In this document: one piece after another, positions 1-9,306 of the stretch | Layout: every line of letters starts with the position of its first letter | Position numbering within the stretch: the stretch's first letter is position 1 | NCBI GenBank assembly: GCA_001606155.1 | Contig: LODT01000013.1 | Span: 434,001 to 498,000 of the forward strand | DNA length: 64,000 bases | Origin: Tieghemostelium lacteum | Taxonomy: Eukaryota > Evosea > Eumycetozoa > Dictyosteliales > Raperosteliaceae | Reading direction: 5' to 3' | Made by a program: the position numbers and the translations under genes | Notes under the pieces: model-generated | What the model saw: only the letters and a program-made list of their open reading frames with translations | Told to the model about the DNA's origin: nothing | Database searches by the model: none

Positions 1-744
1 TTCCAATCTTTCTTCCTCAAGTCTTATCATTTCTAATCTTTCTTGCTCTAAACGTTTTTTTTCAAGTTTGATTTTCTCCAAACGCTCCAATTCCTCTTCT
101 TGTCTTAATTTCTCTAGTCTCTCTTCTTGCTCAATTCTAATTTTCTCCAAACGTTCAACTTCTTTTTCCAATCGAATTTCAGTTAGAGTTTCCAAATAAT
201 ATTTTCTCTGAAGGAACATTCTAACAGTAGATTGTATAGTAATAGCAGATTGTCTAGCTTTTAGGAAATATTTACGAGCAATAATCAATCTTATAAAAGA
301 GGTAATAACAAATGAGGCTTGGTTTTGGATTTCATCTTGTCTGATTTTATACATCTCTGAGGTATCACTAATATGCACAGTTTTTCTTTTGGGTAATAGT
401 TTTCTAGCTTGAACTTTCTCAGCTTTGGTTACAGGTCCAAAAAATACATCATTGAGATCATCTGATGTTGTTGGTATTGTTGAACTAGTTGATTTTACTT
501 TTCCAGGTGATTTTAATGAAATTGAGTGACTGTTATTTACTACATTGGTATTATCCTTCAATGGTGTTATAGATTTAATTGGTGTTGAATTTAATTTAGT
601 TGGTGTAGATGACGACTTTGTTGGTGTTGATTTTATACTATCATTTTCCTTGTTTGATTTTGATTCCCTTGGATCAATGTATCTAACTTTGTTGGTATTT
701 GAGAACTTTACAGATTTTGTGGGAGTTGGTTGTATTGAGTCCAT
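1..744 (-). CDS. IQ-motif coiled-coil protein, 5' part (runs off the left edge)
   Basis: The minus frame from the ATG at 744 stays open to the window edge, about 248 residues. Residues 1-105 are Ser/Thr/Pro/Lys-rich with repeated TPTK/STP-type elements and look disordered. A basic region (QARKLLPKRK) follows, then a stretch matching tandem IQ motifs (FIRLIIARKYFLKARQS, then ITIQSTVRMFLQRKYY; pattern IQxxxRxxxxR). From about residue 190 the sequence becomes a long E/R/L/K heptad helix (LEKIRIEQEERLEKLRQEEE and on), typical of a single-alpha-helix or coiled coil. IQ motifs normally bind calmodulin or myosin light chains. No motor domain is visible in this part. The neighbouring ATG seven bases upstream is out of frame. 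The orthologue cannot be named from the fragment. Confidence 0.8.
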   Translation of the reverse strand, partial: MDSIQPTPTKSVKFSNTNKVRYIDPRESKSNKENDSIKSTPTKSSSTPTKLNSTPIKSITPLKDNTNVVNNSHSISLKSPGKVKSTSSTIPTTSDDLNDVFFGPVTKAEKVQARKLLPKRKTVHISDTSEMYKIRQDEIQNQASFVITSFIRLIIARKYFLKARQSAITIQSTVRMFLQRKYYLETLTEIRLEKEVERLEKIRIEQEERLEKLRQEEELERLEKIKLEKKRLEQERLEMIRLEEERLE

Positions 745-949
745 CTTTCATCAAATAAATAATTTTGAAAAATTTTTTAAATTTGTATTTTATATTATTT
801 AAATGTTGTCTATTTTTAAAAATTTGGCGCTTTAACTTTTTACATTCACAACAAAATAAAAATCTTTAATTAAAATACTAATTTTATTCAAATACATGGT
901 GATTCAAACTGAAACATTGATAGTTTTACTACGAGTAATTGTGCACAGA

Positions 950-2665
950 ATTGTTCTCAACCCTTCCAGTGATGGTCAAACTTCAGAATACCCTCTATAG
1001 CTCGGATAGAGTTAAAGTGGTCATCGTAGCACAAATTTACTGCAATAGGTGGAATGGCAACTTAAATTGTTTTGGATACTTTATATTTGGTAATTAATCC
1101 CAAAAACTCCAATCCTTCAAATGTTTGTTCCAAACCTTTTGGGTAATCAGTGGACCAATTTTTTACAGGTATACCAGCGAAACTATAGCCAAGAGAGTTT
1201 CAATTGTTTTTTGGCCTTTAGAAGTTATTTGTTTACGATTGATATCTTCCAGGTAGCATTCTGCCTTTATAATTGCTTCAATGTAGTACTTTGTAGTGCC
1301 ATTTCTTATTTCCAAATTTTTAACAACTTTTAATAAATACTTCTCTAATATTCTTGTCCAACCACCTATTAAATAAAGGCAGAATTTAAATCTCTTCTAC
1401 ATGTGGATGAATAGTACTAAAACCTATAGCAATATTCAACATTTGATCTAAAGACAAGTTTGGTATGGGAAGTGCTTTGCAATAGTGACCCGACTTGTGT
1501 CAGACATTGGTCTGTTTAGGTAACTTGTCTTAGTATAGAACAATAGACAAAACTAGTAACATATATAGTAATATCTAGAGATCTAGGGTCTCTAATAAAC
1601 ATATATAATAAACATTAACCATTGTGGTTCAGTAAGGTCTATAGTACGTTAGAGATACATATAACACTTTAGAACTTAATATAACTATCCTTAATATAAC
1701 TTAAGTCTTACAGACTTGGAAATTATGAGAGAGTGGTGTTAATAAAATTCCACCAAAGACAGCTACTAAAAATATATTAGAATGATTATTGCAGAGAAGA
1801 CCCAATTCTAGTAACAATTTCTTTTAGATAAACTCTAGATTCCTGAGGGGTGTTTCTAGTAACCAGCATACGATACATATAGCTCTTTATAGTTCGGGTG
1901 TCCAATCTTTTTTGATTCTAATATTTTAGGATATTCAACCAAAACTCTGGTTTTTCCAATACCTGGGGATCTAGCAGCTACTATTATAGGATGGTTTTTC
2001 TGATCTGTTGAAGATTTATTATTAAATCTTTTTTCTGTTACTTTACATAGCTTATCCATTGTTTTTTTTTTCCCTCAAAAGGAAAATCTTTTCCATAGGT
2101 GTCTATTATCTATAAAGATATGTTATTATTGTGTTGGATTTCTTGGTACAAACAAAATATTTACATTGTGTGTTTTATAGAGGTTTTGATTACCATTATC
2201 TACTAAATATTTAAATATATCTATGAATTCTAATTATTTCAATTTATTAATACTATCTGCTTTATATTATACAAAAAAATCTACATACTTTGCTGTCCTT
2301 GTGTACCTATTATTGTATAGTTGAATGTCAACAGGTGTTTAAATTGTGTTGATGTTTATGTTACAAAATATATTAGTATATATGAACAAAAGGTATTGTA
2401 ATTAGTGAGGTGTTTAGTTTACAGTACTTATGGTTGTTTTAATTTTAACACTAAGTCGAACATAACTCTGTGTACCATCATCATAGTTGTTTACTAAAGT
2501 ATTTAACTTTGTAATTGGGGATAAGGGTTCAGTTTCTTCTTCTCTTGAGGTAGGTGTTTTGAAGACTTGAACTAGGTCAAATGAATCTACAGGTTTACCA
2601 ATAGTTGAATTAAAATTTGGTTGAACACAATCTTTAACCTCTGAAATGTACTCTTTTTTTACCAT
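950..2665 (-). pseudogene. Decayed Crinkler (CRN)-type gene copy
   Basis: This is a broken relative of the intact gene at 3395-5516, read on the same strand. Recognisable parts, in order from 2665 downward, are a header-like open segment (2414-2665), an intron-like block nearly identical to the intron of the intact copy (2281-2426), a P-loop NTPase segment with the Walker A core PGIGKT (around 1950), and protein-like pieces of a C-terminal region spread over about 950-1480. A non-coding-looking stretch separates the last parts. It looks clearly dead, with several breaks. Crinkler genes are known for birth-and-death evolution, so a fossil beside a live copy fits. The outer limits are approximate. 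Confidence 0.6.
2281..2426 (-). repeat. Conserved intron-derived block, copy in the decayed CRN gene
   Basis: This stretch pairs with 5089-5229. In the core beginning at 2312, roughly 90 aligned bases differ at only three positions by eye. Similarity fades on the header side right at the intron start (GTAAACTAAAC) and on the other side before the body exon. It lies between the header-like and NTPase-like parts of the decayed copy, the same place as the intron of the intact copy. Confidence 0.8.
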
Positions 2666-3394
2666 GGTTAAACTACTTTCACTTGAATTTTACCCAAACA
2701 GTAACATTGTTATTATCTATATTCATTATATAATTGTTGGGTATTTATTTTAATTCTTTCAAATAGATTCAAATGATATTATTTAAATTTTGTCAAGGAA
2801 TTTTACAAAAAATACAATTTAATGAGAAGACCAGGAGTTTGTGTTTTCTCTGATGGAGATGCAAAGGCCATATCCCCTTCGGGAGAAGAAGAAAATAAGG
2901 ATTTTGATACTCAAATTTTAGTAAAAATTAAAATTAGAAAAATTTGTCAATAAATAAATATATATAAATTGAATAATAATAATAATATTAAAAATTAAAA
3001 TAAATAAATAATTGGTAAATTATTACTATGACAACATGTAAGTCAAAAACAAGATAGTTTTACACAATAAAAAATCAAAAGATTTTTTTCCACATAAGAA
3101 AATTTTTTTTTGACTTTTTGATCAAATGCTGAAATTCTAAATGCAAGTGCGGATAATTTTTGTAAAAAGTGTAATATACCCACATCGCCGACACATTTTG
3201 TTGACTCTCAATAAATCTTGTAGTCTTTAATTTTATTTCTGCACTTTTTTTTATTTTTTTTTTGGTTTTGCTACAGTTAAGGTGAATCTAGAGTTTAAAT
3301 TTATGGGATATTATAATACCCCAACTAATCAAGAGGAGGAGATACAACAAAAAAAACAAACACCATCCAAATATAATATAATGGAACCACAACG
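2666..3394. other. AT-rich interval between the two CRN copies, one small ORF
   Basis: No convincing gene is visible. A 43-codon plus-strand frame at 2822-2953 starts MRRPGVCVFSDGD and ends with a Lys/Ile-rich tail. It has better codon balance than random AT sequence, but nothing identifies it. The stretch from 2960 to 3390 is mostly homopolymeric A/T and probably holds the 3' end of the intact CRN gene. Confidence 0.4.
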
Positions 3395-5516
3395 TTATGG
3401 TTTTGGTGGATAGGCAAAACATTGATATTCAGAGAAATCAGCATTGTGCCATATGTGGATTACGCCAACGCCTGATATTGATGTAGGATACTTTACAGTT
3501 TCATTTTCTTTTCCCATTGTGTAGTGGAGTACCCAAGCTTCTAATGCACCTGCTGCTTTCTTATATTCTGAACATCTATTAATGTGTTCTGAAACTTGAT
3601 TTAATGTGGAATGGGCTACAATTTCTAATATACATTTTTTACCAACAATCTCTAGTAAAATATCAGCTCTATCTGTTTTTGTTGAACTAGTTCTAGCATT
3701 TGGAAAAATATGCATAGGTGGATCCCAAATCTTAATGAGTGTAACTAATTCAAAGTGATAAAAAGCTTCTGATGGAACTAAAGTGTCCTTTTTAGGTCCT
3801 GTACCAAAACCTCTATAGTTCTTAGTTGAAAGGTTTCCATTCAGTGTGAAAAATGGTGTGAGAGTTTCCACCATTTGAATGATATCAAATTCAGTATTTT
3901 TTCTCGACTTGGGTGGAACCTTACGATTGCATATTGTGCGTATATTGGCCAATAAACAATAATAGAGTAATTGTGATTTGATGGCACACTGGGAGATAAT
4001 TACTAATTCTGAGCCCGCTTTTAATTGATAATTTAAAATACCAATTGATATCCAATATCTATCTGCATCACCTAATTTGGTATCAACGATCAAGGGTTTA
4101 GGAAAAGATCTGATATGTTCCAATAATCTCTCTTTATATTGAGGTGAATCAATTTCCAAATCACTCATTATTCTTGTGACAGTAGAATACCCCAATACTT
4201 GTTGAATAAGAGAGGAGGATACAAGTTCTGACCAATCACTAAAGTTTTTGTCAAAATGATTCATACCTTCATCAACTGCTCTACCACACAAATTTACCAG
4301 TCCAGCATGTCCATTAGTCAGGTCAAATATATTTTCAACTATTTTAGGGTCCACTGTGCATGCATGGTCATCTTGGTATAACTTAAATAGTTTTTTAACT
4401 TCCTCTAGGGTGAAATCATTTGTAGCAATCTGATCAATAACGTTAAAAGGAGAATATTTCCGACTTTTTGGTGCGTTAATGGAATGTGGCTGAATAGGGT
4501 GTATTTTGTCTATAAATAAGATATCAAATGGCCCAATGGCAACCACAGACTTTAAATATGAGTCGAATGGTTTCCAACTTCTAAGTTGTCCAAGGAAACC
4601 TATCTTTACTTCTTCAGGTGCTGCTAATATTCTATCAAATTCATCGATAAATAGAACAACTTTCTTCCCAAGAAAGAATTTTTTTGCTAAAACATTTTGT
4701 TTATCAAAAATATAAGGAACATCATCAGATGTAAATGTACCGTTTATACATCTATTAATTTCACGTACGAATCGTTTCCAAAAGTCTTCAGAATTTAAAG
4801 TATAATGCTCCAATGATGTATAGACAGGGATATAATTTTGCTGTGTGAGTTTCTCCATTATATCAATAACCTTTGTTGTTTTTCCAGAAGATCTTGTTCC
4901 ATGAAATAAAATATAATCTCCCTGGAGTATTTTATCCCTAAATGAAGTGTTATCTCTTTCCAAATAAAAATATTTTGTATTCCTTTCATGAATTCCAATG
5001 GCGCCGTTTGTACTAAATCGTGTTGGAAAAACTAAAATTTTAATATTAATATTAAAACAAATCTAATCAATCCTGTCTATTAAATAATCTACATACATCC
5101 CTGTAATTGTGTATCTATTGTATAGTTGAATGTCAAAAGGTGTTTAAATTGTGTTGATGTTTATGTTACAAAATATATTAGTATAAATGAACAAAAGGTG
5201 TTGTAATTATGATAGGTTTAGTTTACATACCAGTAATTGTTGGAACAGCGGTTGAAACAATTGTAAAAAGTCTAGTTTTTCCATCAATATCTTTGTCTAA
5301 ATCCTTTATCTCTTTCTCACTAGGAAGTATTTGATTTTTATCATATTTACCATCAACATAAGAAACTAATTTCAATCTTATACTTTCATTATTTGGCCTA
5401 AAATGGGAGATGAATTTATGATGAGAATAAACAAAATCTTCAACTTGACCAAGGTAAGGAAATTCTGGAACTACAATTGATGTGTTTTTATCAATATAAA
5501 CAAATACAAAGTTCAT
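3395..5516 (-). CDS. Crinkler (CRN)-type protein: header, P-loop NTPase and REase-like tail
   Basis: Two exons, 5231-5516 and 3395-5031, join in phase across a 199-base intron (donor GTATGT, acceptor ATTTTAG) to give 640 residues. Residues 1-95 form a beta-rich, ubiquitin-like header ending VSTAVPTIT. A linker (VFPTRFSTNGAIGIH) leads to a P-loop NTPase with Walker A GTRSSGKT (140-147) and Walker B VVLFIDEFD (about 220-228). Residues 550-640 resemble the PD-(D/E)XK nuclease tail of CRN proteins: D552 in RADILLE, E565 in ILEIVAH, then a SEHINR stretch. Known CRN family members have this header-NTPase-nuclease plan, and many act in the nucleus. Nuclease activity here is inferred, because the usual Lys after the Glu is not obvious. 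No signal peptide is visible. The body exon begins upstream of the TTG at 4963, so that codon is not the start. Confidence 0.8.
5089..5229 (-). repeat. Conserved intron-derived block, copy inside the intact CRN intron
   Basis: This is the partner of 2281-2426. It covers most of the intron of the intact gene, from just inside the 5' splice site towards the body exon. Its core starts near 5118 and reads ATTGTATAGTTGAATGTCAA on the plus strand. See the finding on exon-intron similarity. Confidence 0.8.
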
Positions 5517-6848
5517 TGTTGAAAAAGTTTAACTAAAAAAAAAAAATTTAAATATATTGAAATTTTAAAAAAAATATATTTAAATAGGAAATAGAGAATG
5601 GATTAAATAGAGAATTTCCTATTAAATTCAAAATAATTTATTGATACCAATTCTATTGACTTGCAAATAATGTTTTTATTTCGTATATAAATTTGAAATT
5701 TGTATATATACCCTTTTTTTCCTTTTGATTCATCTTTTCAAATGGTATGAATTAAATTATGATATACATCTATTGTATTGTAAAGATTATTCAGCAGAAA
5801 TAAACTTTATCAACAAAATATCACCAATATAGGTAAAAAAATAGTTAACATTTTCATTATTTGCTTTTCTGTATTTATGATGTTGAAAAGTAAATGCATG
5901 AGGTATCACTTGCATATTGCTTATTAAACAATACTAGCATTGGCATTAAAAATATAATATAATATAAGCTACACTTCCAGCAAGAATTCAGTCTGCTGAA
6001 TAAACATTAATCTTCAGATTGTTTGGGTTAGCAAAACTTGAAGCAACTCTCACAATTGTTTGGGGATCTCAATTGAACCTGCGGAACATTCTGATCTTAG
6101 AGAAGGTCTAACCCTTCTCTTAGCCAAGTATTCAGACAAAACTATACTTCTGTATTCGTTTAATTGGTTAAGAAGATATTAGGTATGAGCTGAAGAAGAG
6201 GTACTCCTGATGTTGTATTAGAATTTAAAGTTGTGTTGGTTCTGATTCTACATTTTCATAGTTATTTATAAGATTATTATTATTATTATTACTGTGGTTA
6301 GAAGCAGCTTTAAGTTCTATAATAACATTATTATTATTGTTTGCATCTGAGAATGATACCAATGGTGCTTGAGTAGAAGGACTACTGATCAGTTATTATT
6401 ATTATAAAATAGGCAATTGAATTAATGGTTTAAAATATGCTTTTAAATTACTCTAATTCTTTATATTAGCTCAACATTAATGAATATAGTTGTATCTAGA
6501 GCACATATGAGTGTTAAAGAGATACCAGCCGCACTTAAAGTATAAATAGTACTTTTATATAAAAATGAGTTATATTTTTGGTGAATCTGAAAAACATTGG
6601 CGATTATATCATTGGAAATTCATGACCTCTGTATAAATTTAAAATAAATAAATAAAAAAGTAAAGTTACTTTTTTTACTTTTTTTCCTATTTATAAAATT
6701 TCAATAAAGAATTTTTTTTATGCTCGATTTTATTTTTAAAAGTTTTTTTGATTCGTTGGTGCATAATAACATTGAGTTTTGAATCGCACTTTATCAATCA
6801 AAGAACCCAAACACTATACATTCTTAATAAATTATAAATATCGAAACA
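5517..6848. other. Intergenic region upstream of two divergent genes, with a gene remnant
   Basis: Apart from the Asn-rich remnant at about 5990-6395, this 1.3 kb is AT-rich with no open frame of note. Its ends should hold the promoters of the CRN gene (minus) and of the CxxC protein gene (plus). Long T/A runs at 6670-6730 precede the latter. Confidence 0.5.
5990..6395 (-). pseudogene. Eroded Asn-rich gene fragment, family unknown
   Basis: On the minus strand, coding-like pieces lie in different frames. The first is an Asn-rich piece (SPSTQAPLVSFSDANNNN, ending NYENVESEPTQL). Then comes a conserved-looking piece (QLNEYRSIVLSEYLAKRR, continuing RPSLRSECSAGS and IEIPKQ), which stops with TGA near 6060. 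A third piece one frame away reads VRVASSFANPNNLKINVYS. The order is collinear, so this looks like the decayed end of one protein gene rather than chance. No parent gene is present in the window, and I do not recognise the family. Confidence 0.5.
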
Positions 6849-7601
6849 ATGCCTCTACTTCATGAGGATAATTATTTTTCTCTGCCATTAAATGGTAGCA
6901 TGATGAACCATTTTGGTTCGGTACAAGATGAAATCGATAATTCGTTACCCCTAGATATGATTATCAATGAAGGGAGTTTATCATCTTATAAAAACACCAA
7001 CAATATCAATAGTCCCTCTAAACAATCTTCCACTTTTTTATATAATACCTCATGTTCCCCATTAGATGAACCCAAACCCACTTTTGAAATGGATAATACA
7101 TATGTTAATAACAATAATAATAATAATACAAATAATAATAACAATAACACTGAAAATAATAATAACAATAATATAATAGAAAATAGTAGTACAGTATTTC
7201 ACGACAATGAAAATACATTTAATTTATTTAATACACATAACGAGGATGATTTAACTTTTGATCTTGAACAATCGGATGAAAGTGTACCTAATACACCAAG
7301 TGCAGTAAGACTAAAAAATCATTCATCTAATGGTAGTCTTAGAGTGTGTAAAACCAAATTGGACACAAAATGCAATCCAATATTTAACAAGACATTTTAT
7401 TGTAAAGAATGCAATAATCCCGATAAACCCATGAAATATCTATACATAAATTTACAAGAGATTCTCTATTCGTGCTGCAGTGAAAACTGTAATTTCCCAC
7501 TGAACAGTACCGAAATTAATCAATATATCTTTCAAACACCGCAGTACCCACAATATCAACCAAACAAAAGAAAATCACCCAAATTATCACTTTCAAATTA
7601 A
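6849..7601 (+). CDS. Asn-rich protein with a C-terminal CxxC zinc-binding segment
   Basis: A single exon of 250 residues. Residues 1-160 are low complexity, with an Asn run at about 80-110 encoded by AAT/AAC repeats. Residues 165-225 are different: FNKTFYCKECNNP (CxxC), then YINLQEILYSCCSENCNFPL, giving four or five Cys spaced as one zinc ribbon or knuckle. The C-terminus is basic (PNKRKSPKLS) and could be a nuclear targeting signal. I do not recognise the family. The Cys cluster is the only part likely to be conserved. The start is the first ATG after a long T/A-rich leader. A nuclear or regulatory role is only a guess. Confidence 0.75.
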   Translation: MPLLHEDNYFSLPLNGSMMNHFGSVQDEIDNSLPLDMIINEGSLSSYKNTNNINSPSKQSSTFLYNTSCSPLDEPKPTFEMDNTYVNNNNNNNTNNNNNNTENNNNNNIIENSSTVFHDNENTFNLFNTHNEDDLTFDLEQSDESVPNTPSAVRLKNHSSNGSLRVCKTKLDTKCNPIFNKTFYCKECNNPDKPMKYLYINLQEILYSCCSENCNFPLNSTEINQYIFQTPQYPQYQPNKRKSPKLSLSN

Positions 7602-7815
7602 ATTTTAGAAATAGGATAAAAAAGAGGATAGAGAGAAACTTAGATTATCTCCAATGTAAATAGAAATATAGTTATTTTGGTTAAATAAAGTTATAACCAA
7701 TCGATTAAAACAACTGAGAAAGTAAGAGTAAAGAGAAATATTTGAATGCTGACTTTACTTTATTTCAATTTGTGTTGGGTATTGAAAGGTGAGGTATGTG
7801 TGTTCTGTTGATACA

Positions 7816-9306
7816 TTATGAAAAATGAGCATCTAAATAGGAGTACAATGATAAAGATGATTTTGTATGTAACATCAATCTATAATATTCCCAAAGAGAT
7901 TTATAGAGTTGACCTATTGTAACTGCTTTTTGTTGTAAAAATGTAACCATATTAGTGAGTTCATTGGCAAACTTTTCTTCACCAAAAGAGTAATATACAA
8001 TATCTCTACCAGATTGAGAGGCTGCAATCAACTGAATTAAAACTTTCAAATGTTTATCGCCACCAAATACACCGCAACCCCAGTTACCAGTGGCAACATT
8101 GGGTGGAAGTGTTGCTGATAGACTATCATAGAACCCACAATAAGCCTTCTTGAGTTCCCTGTCAATGTGGTGAGGTGAAAACTGAATAAATGTGTCTGGT
8201 CCATGAAGTTTAAGTGCATCCATTGCAACAATAGTTGTAGTACGTCGACCTAGTTTATCAGTTGGAGTCTGGTCCTGGTGAGGACCAGTCCAGGTAAATG
8301 TCTCACCATACCCACTGTAATTTGAGAATCTCTGTGCTCCACTTACAATAAGACATTCGTTATCCAGAAGCTGTGCTGTAAATAATCTAGATATAATCAA
8401 CTCAGGATTGATCATAAATCTAATTTCCTCCTGTACACAGCCGTGTCCTAGTACACCTCCACCTACCATCTTATTTGCAAAATCCACTTGTAACATACCT
8501 GCTCCATCATCTTCTATAGTACCTTGTGAGAATGCAGCTATATCACGTAGGAATCTAGTTGATTTCTCCCAATCTGGGTAATCAGCTTCATCTATAACCT
8601 GTCTGTGATAGGATATGATCCCAGTTGGCATCTGATTGGTTACTGTTATGAGATACTGTATGATACAATTAAGCTTTGCAGCACGATTTGGGACTAGGTT
8701 ACCCTCGTAGAGTGTATTAAAGTTTATGGATGGGTATTTACTGTTATACTGCTCGCCCTGTTTAGGAAATGTGCATAGAAATGCATTGCACATCAAAGAG
8801 GCTATTTGTCTCTGTGAGAATATCAACTCTTTATCTACATTCTTTTTCAATAGTGGTATAGGTCTAGGCAGTAGAAATGGCAGTTGAAGTGCCAAGTTGA
8901 TTACTTTTGGTAGTGTATTAAGGAAAAACTCACGAGTGTCGCTCTCCGACATTTCCAACTCAAAGAAATCCAATAGGCATTGAAAATCCTTGTAGTGAGT
9001 ATACACCTTAATGGCATCAATAAATGATTCGCAATCTCTAATATGTGTACTCAAAGCAGTACTAATAAGGTACCATCTAGAAAGATATTTTGTCTTGATT
9101 TGTGGTTGTGCATTGGGATCATCTAAACTACTTGTATTTTCAGTAACCTGTTTTCTGTATACATTATTCTTTGAACATGGTAATTTAACATATTCATTAT
9201 TCCAAACATCTTTATATTTCTCATCATCAAAAGGTATTAAAAATATTCTATTCGATAGAGTTTCTTCTGGTTTAAAATCAAATTCATCTGATAATGTGGA
9301 TGGTGA

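Follow-up and report, generated by a model that had tools for sequence, protein, structure and literature searches.

In the CRN effectors of oomycetes, recombination has been proposed to take place at the HVLVxxP junction between header and body (Haas 2009, as cited in the sections of PMC5289972 and PMC6131194 that deal with these proteins). Here we describe genes of the amoeba Tieghemostelium lacteum in which the junction between header and body is an intron. The window, a stretch of 64,000 nucleotides (assembly GCA_001606155.1, contig LODT01000013.1, positions 434,001 to 498,000 of the forward strand), carries two copies of a conserved block of about 140 nt, one in the intact gene DLAC_02654 and one in a decayed gene. 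Within this one genome, a 23.3-Mb assembly, dozens of toxin-like genes have this intron, in very similar form, where their front half joins the back half. Altogether, our results support a model whereby the block is the connector intron of a modular family resembling Crinkler and Crinkler-RHS-type (CR) proteins, in which modules are swapped by ectopic recombination or conversion inside a phase-1 intron; we put the probability of this model at roughly 0.85.

The original prediction, made from the window alone, had noted two nearly identical blocks between dissimilar exons. This observation holds and belongs to a much larger picture. With the 141-nt block as query, the assembly gave at least 40 scored matches among 77 first-look candidates, and these differ from the window block by 7 to 22%. 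A 31-mer from the core of the block occurs within three mismatches at at least 43 places, ten of them exact (reversed-pattern control, none), a variant core pattern occurs at at least ten, and two further block copies used as queries led to additional places. All five search counts are lower bounds, and the loci considered here are the places listed in those searches; L-numbers such as L010 label loci fetched from the assembly, and a C11 coordinate is a contig position. Scored with a profile of the block, the window and the 68 fetched loci contain 74 copies above 20 bits, and the only fetched locus with none is L074. A header-like frame being taken as an open frame of at least 40 amino acids or a stretch matched by another header in tblastn, 54 of the 74 copies lie between such a frame and a body that recurs at another locus, 13 between a header and a unique body, and six before a shared body without a header. 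Thus 73 have a header-like frame 5', a shared body 3', or both, and the single copy with neither adjoins another copy in the same locus. Queried genome-wide, as had been proposed, the block sits between headers and varying bodies in most of the copies considered, which does not suit an interspersed repeat unrelated to such genes. Several copies stop in the core and continue as other intron sequence.

The 5' part of the block goes with the header, whereas its 3' part goes with the body, and the switch lies mostly in or beside a 33-nt core. The modules themselves occur in many pairings: a set of 64 copies holds 48 header-body combinations, 38 of them within eight named header families. Counting single headers, body clusters B0 and B1 are each found under six header labels, B4 under five, and B2 and B3 under four each, and the SAM-like header is joined to 13 body clusters. 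The body of DLAC_02654 recurs under a header of the RVYKD family in DLAC_09255 (76% amino acid identity), and its family under a SAM-like header in DLAC_01878 (47%). A linkage scan recorded, for each 24-nt segment of the block in 65 copies, whether the nearest other copy shares the header or the body, sharers of both modules being excluded. Over the first five segments (columns 3-59), header sharing was 25.8, 26.2, 22.9, 24.1, and 19.5 of 63-65, against a null of about 10 (0/200 permutations, a count that here and below treats copies as exchangeable, which related copies are not); it then fell to 12.9 (23/200) and was at background from the segment at column 51. Body sharing was at background in the four segments starting 5' of column 35 (2.1, 0.2, 0.9, and 3.0; null about 2.5-2.8), rose to 6.8 in the core segment (1/200), was 5.4 (8/200), 5.9 (8/200), 6.1 (24/200), 6.4 (9/200), and 7.2 (5/200) in the next five segments, and reached 9.8 to 14.2 of 54-62 in the six 3' segments (null about 3; 0/200). 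Repeating the scan with one copy per combination (48) gave the same picture, as did, apart from two segments, a scan without SAM headers (39). With header linkage falling to background and body linkage rising inside the block, the earlier suggestion that the intron serves as a site for swapping headers and bodies is supported.

Individual copies show the same change of ancestry. Among the 23 testable copies, that is, those with both a header-side and a body-side relative, 14 switch from header to body relative at p<0.05, and nine of these 14 switch intervals overlap the core. In the trio L030-L025-L022, L025 combines the header and 5' part of L030 with the body and 3' part of L022. L077, which came to light in a survey for SAM headers without a listed block, is a fresh chimera whose parts meet at the core: it is identical to L010 over 293 nt and a further 27 nt into the core, and from there 99.5% identical to L065 over 409 nt, so that the swap is very recent. 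Linkage scans, breakpoints, and L077 all point to mosaic ancestry with the change-over inside the intron. On the header side, L009 and L010 are 98% identical in upstream DNA over 295 nt and 88.9% identical from the donor on over 513 nt, then in pieces, and their headers differ; sharing both flanks without sharing the header, they indicate that one header can be exchanged for another as a cassette. L095, L009, and L010, whose headers differ, have about 260-450 nt of upstream sequence in common at 94-98%, a possible promoter module.

The intact window gene (3395-5516, with all its features on the minus strand) was identified by protein search as the T. lacteum protein DLAC_02654 at NCBI. The database protein reads VPTIT-DTQLQG-FFPTRFS across its junctions, and the block therefore comprises intron 1, a microexon, and the start of intron 2. 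Where the original prediction had placed one header-body intron at 5089-5229, two introns thus flank an 18-nt microexon. The header exon (5231-5516, about 95 amino acids, from the open reading frame list and the DLAC_02654 start) ends in phase 1 before the donor and has no Pfam family at E 0.1. Intron 1 (5115-5230, 116 nt; donor GTATGT, acceptor CAATAG) was placed by sequence and family alignment, is consistent with DLAC_02654, and contains the conserved core AACACCTTTTGTTCATTTATACTAATATATTTT at 5170-5202, delimited by 31-mer pattern matches, linkage scans, and divergence. The microexon (5097-5114) encodes, with its neighbours' split codons, the linker DTQLQG, and intron 2 (5032-5096, 65 nt; donor GTATGTAG, acceptor TTTTAG, from sequence and DLAC_02654) leads to the body exon (3395-5031), an AAA-type NTPase (PF14516 AAA_35, E 1.2e-9) followed by a C-terminal alpha/beta region. 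From the secondary structure of a low-confidence model, and by impression only, this C-terminal region looks nuclease-like; in the same model the header, with a pLDDT (predicted local distance difference test) near 30, is too poor for its fold to be named. The window body has 43 homologues at E 0.001, two of which (P0020 and P0025 of Rhizophagus irregularis) join this body type to the Crinkler header PF20147, a pairing expected of Crinkler/CR-type modular genes. By eye, the LxLFLAK and HVLVxxP strings are absent from DLAC_02654, which is therefore no CRN protein in the strict oomycete sense. Between the window body and that of the RVYKD-headed L059, the proportion of nonsynonymous differences (pN) is 0.12 over 966 nt and that of synonymous differences (pS) 0.05, values that hint at diversifying selection or at relaxed constraint with biased codon use.

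Across the family, most copies are preceded by a short open exon of roughly 45 to 125 codons that ends at the donor. BLAST clustering at fixed cut-offs, with the block aligned by profile, sorted the headers into eight recurrent families and ten single ones and the bodies into 25 clusters, the last an approximate count because single clusters may be neighbouring genes (for example, L032 and L015). The header families, named after strings in their own sequences, are SAM-like (25 copies in the main cluster, L019 being retained on a 14-residue match), TLTEG and RVYKD (seven each), RKDLI (three by clustering plus one by tblastn), WTTED (likewise three plus two), LDPTT (two plus one), and EEAIK and VIVYF (each one full header and one short match). 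The header frame of L060 has 42 amino acids and no early start. A first clustering that placed SAM-like and TLTEG headers together had chained them through low-complexity sequence and was split. In Pfam, two header families match SAM weakly and below threshold, and the L021 header weakly matches Crinkler (E 0.068); judged by eye, nothing more than a mini-header of about MSNNNY seems to be present in L019, L056, L066, and L093. The bodies include the AAA_35 type of the window, a RING finger type in L016, and one in L043 that combines DUF5898 with a weakly type-I restriction-like stretch; a Pfam scan of ten other clusters left five without a match at E 0.01, and a sixth matched at no better than 0.0055. 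Of 56 open header frames of at least 40 amino acids, 50 reach the first recognised donor in phase 1, the shared phase expected of intron-mediated exon shuffling, with the body side checked in the window gene only. Microexon length, read by the rule of a second donor and the first TAG before it, could be obtained in 38 of the 74 copies and is a multiple of three in 37 (mostly 9, 18, or 27; two are 0), although copies are related and their lengths hence not independent; L027, with 14, is the sole exception. In L042, L043, and L073, two tandem block copies, possibly with a small exon between them, separate header and body, and in L016, L081, and L084 one header-like module follows another, each with its own block behind it, as though the connector allowed modules to be strung together.

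The second window copy of the block (2281-2423, nhmmer 118.7 bits) also lies on the minus strand, with its core at 2365-2397 (the 31-mer with two mismatches, C11:436365-436395). It follows a header-like open frame at 2414-2665, taken from the open reading frame list, and precedes a decayed, stop-interrupted body of family B0 (P-loop NTPase type) at 1862-2092, which is 75% identical to an L014-type body over 77 residues with one internal TGA. Aligned to each other, blocks 5089-5231 and 2281-2424 score 107 (mononucleotide shuffles: mean 7.1, maximum of 100, 17.5) with 127 of 140 aligned bases identical; BLAST gives 88.8% over 143 columns, and by eye its alignment holds about three substitutions in one stretch of roughly 88 bases, in keeping with what had been noted earlier. 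The flanking exons are not similar to the same degree: the header exons score 5.0 against a shuffle mean of 4.7, and the body regions, over their first 600 nt, 3.5 against 3.8, both at chance level. They had been called barely alignable, which is correct as to the scores, but they are not visibly diverged homologues; they are different header and body modules. The argument that selection on exons should have given the opposite pattern consequently needs to be changed, because the exons compared are not homologous, and in homologous exons of closer pairs pN is about as high as pS.

Several results weigh against our model or narrow it. In the scan without SAM headers, the segment at 76-100 retains some header linkage (2/200) and body linkage at 44-68 is not significant (37/200). 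Mean identity by pair class gives weak contrasts where nearest neighbours give clear ones: in the 5' part the header effect is clear (9/500) and the body effect is positive as well (26/500), and in the 3' part neither is significant (52/500 and 150/500). Nine of the 23 testable copies show no significant switch; five of the 14 significant switches have breakpoints beyond the core, four of them at columns 83-100 and the fifth immediately 5' of the core; among the nine overlapping intervals, one reaches no further than the core edge (67-72); and the 14 include near-identical triplicates and reciprocal pairs and thus represent fewer than 14 independent events. The L077 junction carries two small deletions around the core and is therefore not an equal crossover. 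Of 41 SAM-header matches in the genome, 25 adjoin a listed block; 14 further SAM-header loci without one were fetched, covering 15 matches and leaving one match out, and have block remnants above 20 bits in seven cases, weak remnants in three, and none in four (L082, L083, L086, and L088, where the profile has no match at all). The splicing model rests on a database protein rather than on reads, four of the 56 header frames are in phase 2 with an altered donor, one (the decayed window copy) is in phase 0 and one could not be read, and by the microexon rule 31 of the 74 copies have no second donor and five no TAG acceptor. Among four other loci (L091-L094), three carry the block or its 3' part. 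In L083, the SAM header runs by eye into sequence like that at about 3280-3560 of the window, the reversed 3' end of the window gene, and appears to be a rearranged remnant.

What keeps the core uniform is a question separate from the swapping. In copies that differ in both modules, core divergence is 0.137 (bootstrap 0.106-0.172) versus 0.218 (0.191-0.254) on its 5' side and 0.216 (0.184-0.239) on its 3' side, and it stays within 0.06-0.16 across bins of header or body pS that run from under 0.15 to over 0.6; both flanking parts of the block, 5' and 3', level off too, near 0.2. The flat core divergence is compatible with repeated exchange, homogenisation, and constraint alike. The core could be kept for a function in RNA or transcription, as splicing signal, enhancer, intronic promoter, or small RNA, with swapping occurring there merely because it offers the longest shared homology. 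The introns of Plasmodium var genes contain a promoter. The low divergence and the block consensus, with its two CTAAT branch-point-like motifs and three TAAACACCT repeats, speak for such a function, but it leaves the linkage switch unexplained, the four SAM-header loci named above do without a profile match, RNA folding of six copies gave no structure beyond shuffles (z 1.81 to -1.45), and an Rfam scan of window positions 1-8000 found no match in the block. We therefore regard it as possible, if somewhat unlikely, and find the earlier idea of a regulatory element or small RNA unsupported as far as a structured or known RNA is concerned. A CrcZ-like Rfam match in the scanned region was sub-threshold, lay outside the block, and was discarded. 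At columns 15, 34, and 91 the block consensus repeats the octamer AAACACCT; a threefold octamer of any kind appeared in 32 of 20,000 mononucleotide shuffles of the consensus. That the core is a dedicated cis element, a break or protein-binding site for programmed or favoured recombination selected for new header-body combinations in the manner of antigen families, seems to us improbable.

Other explanations dispense with exchange between dispersed genes. In venom gene families, fast-evolving exons accompany slow introns, and the high pN of headers (0.11 against a pS of 0.10 in the closest bin) and of the window body compared with L059 would suit plain gene duplication of this kind with no exchange inside the intron; it is already contradicted by the occurrence of the same bodies with unrelated headers and the reverse, by the linkage switch, and by the fresh chimera, and retains very little probability. 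We give as little credence to a mobile intron or small transposable element inserted independently into many genes, which would account for the many dispersed copies on many contigs but hardly for header frames in phase 1 in 50 of 56 cases, for block halves inherited with header and body, or for the finding that only one of the 74 copies lacks both header-like frame and shared body. Least probable of all is chimeric assembly at a repeated block: the block is indeed repeated, but it is only about 140 nt long, its matches differ by 7 to 22% from the window copy, 48 combinations with graded divergence would be unexpected, and public proteins span some of the junctions. The two window copies are neighbours at a distance of 2.7 kb, and for this pair local gene conversion, which the original prediction had listed, may contribute, their 3' parts being mutual nearest relatives at 98%. 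As the explanation of their likeness it is rather doubtful, since other loci are 94 to 96% alike there and the intact gene's copy has nearer relatives elsewhere for its 5' part (L033, 97%), and it cannot explain the genome-wide family; the intron as swap site is the supported reading.

In our model of a connector intron in which modules are swapped, unrelated short header exons end in phase 1 at a shared GTATGTAAAC-type donor and varied bodies follow the same intron, about half of the copies apparently reaching the body through a microexon. Dispersed copies would recombine ectopically, by crossover or gene conversion, within the block and in particular its core region. A new header-body gene would keep its frame because both sides are in phase 1, and an intron should tolerate small indels well. 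Exchange probably both depends on the uniform core and helps to keep it uniform; the core may also serve in splicing or transcription, and such a second role would conserve it further. As a case of intron-mediated exon shuffling, the family has copies in sufficient number, and one or more sufficiently recent events, to make the exchange point visible at near-nucleotide resolution, and it raises the testable question of whether a conserved intron core can act as a recombination hotspot.

Titles and the beginnings of abstracts on Dictyostelium Crinklers, CRN introns, and shuffling at conserved introns, within a limited open-licence literature, yielded no such case; related systems are known, and we compare them here as far as the available sections of the publications describe them. 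In a further published case of exon shuffling, massive shuffling between dispersed genes likewise involves one intron phase and ectopic recombination is invoked, but one exon type is repeated in arrays, whereas here two unlike modules are joined by a conserved connector intron in which breakpoints cluster. The SmPoMuc genes of Schistosoma mansoni (PMC2576457) similarly have conserved intronic sequence around exchanged exons, with ectopic recombination proposed and pseudogenes as possible donors; there, tandem repeats of one exon type within one gene family are involved. Exon shuffling between phase-1 introns also yielded a new toxin gene in cone snails (PMC10501145), as a single event for which the sections at hand describe no repeatedly used shared intron sequence. 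CR proteins (Zhang 2016, via PMC5289972) resemble our family in an architecture of header plus NTPase and nuclease, the nuclease being putative here, and in having several unrelated kinds of header; their description is at the protein level, and the word intron does not appear in the available text of the review. Finally, oomycete CRN proteins resemble the family in their N-terminal header, varied C-terminal body, and proposed exchange at the boundary (PMC5289972, PMC6131194). Their proposed hotspot is a coding motif, while in T. lacteum the change-over maps to an intron, mostly its 33-nt core, shared by many unrelated headers. The connector intron suggests how the header-body modularity of Crinkler-like conflict proteins could come about, a process earlier assigned to a coding motif.

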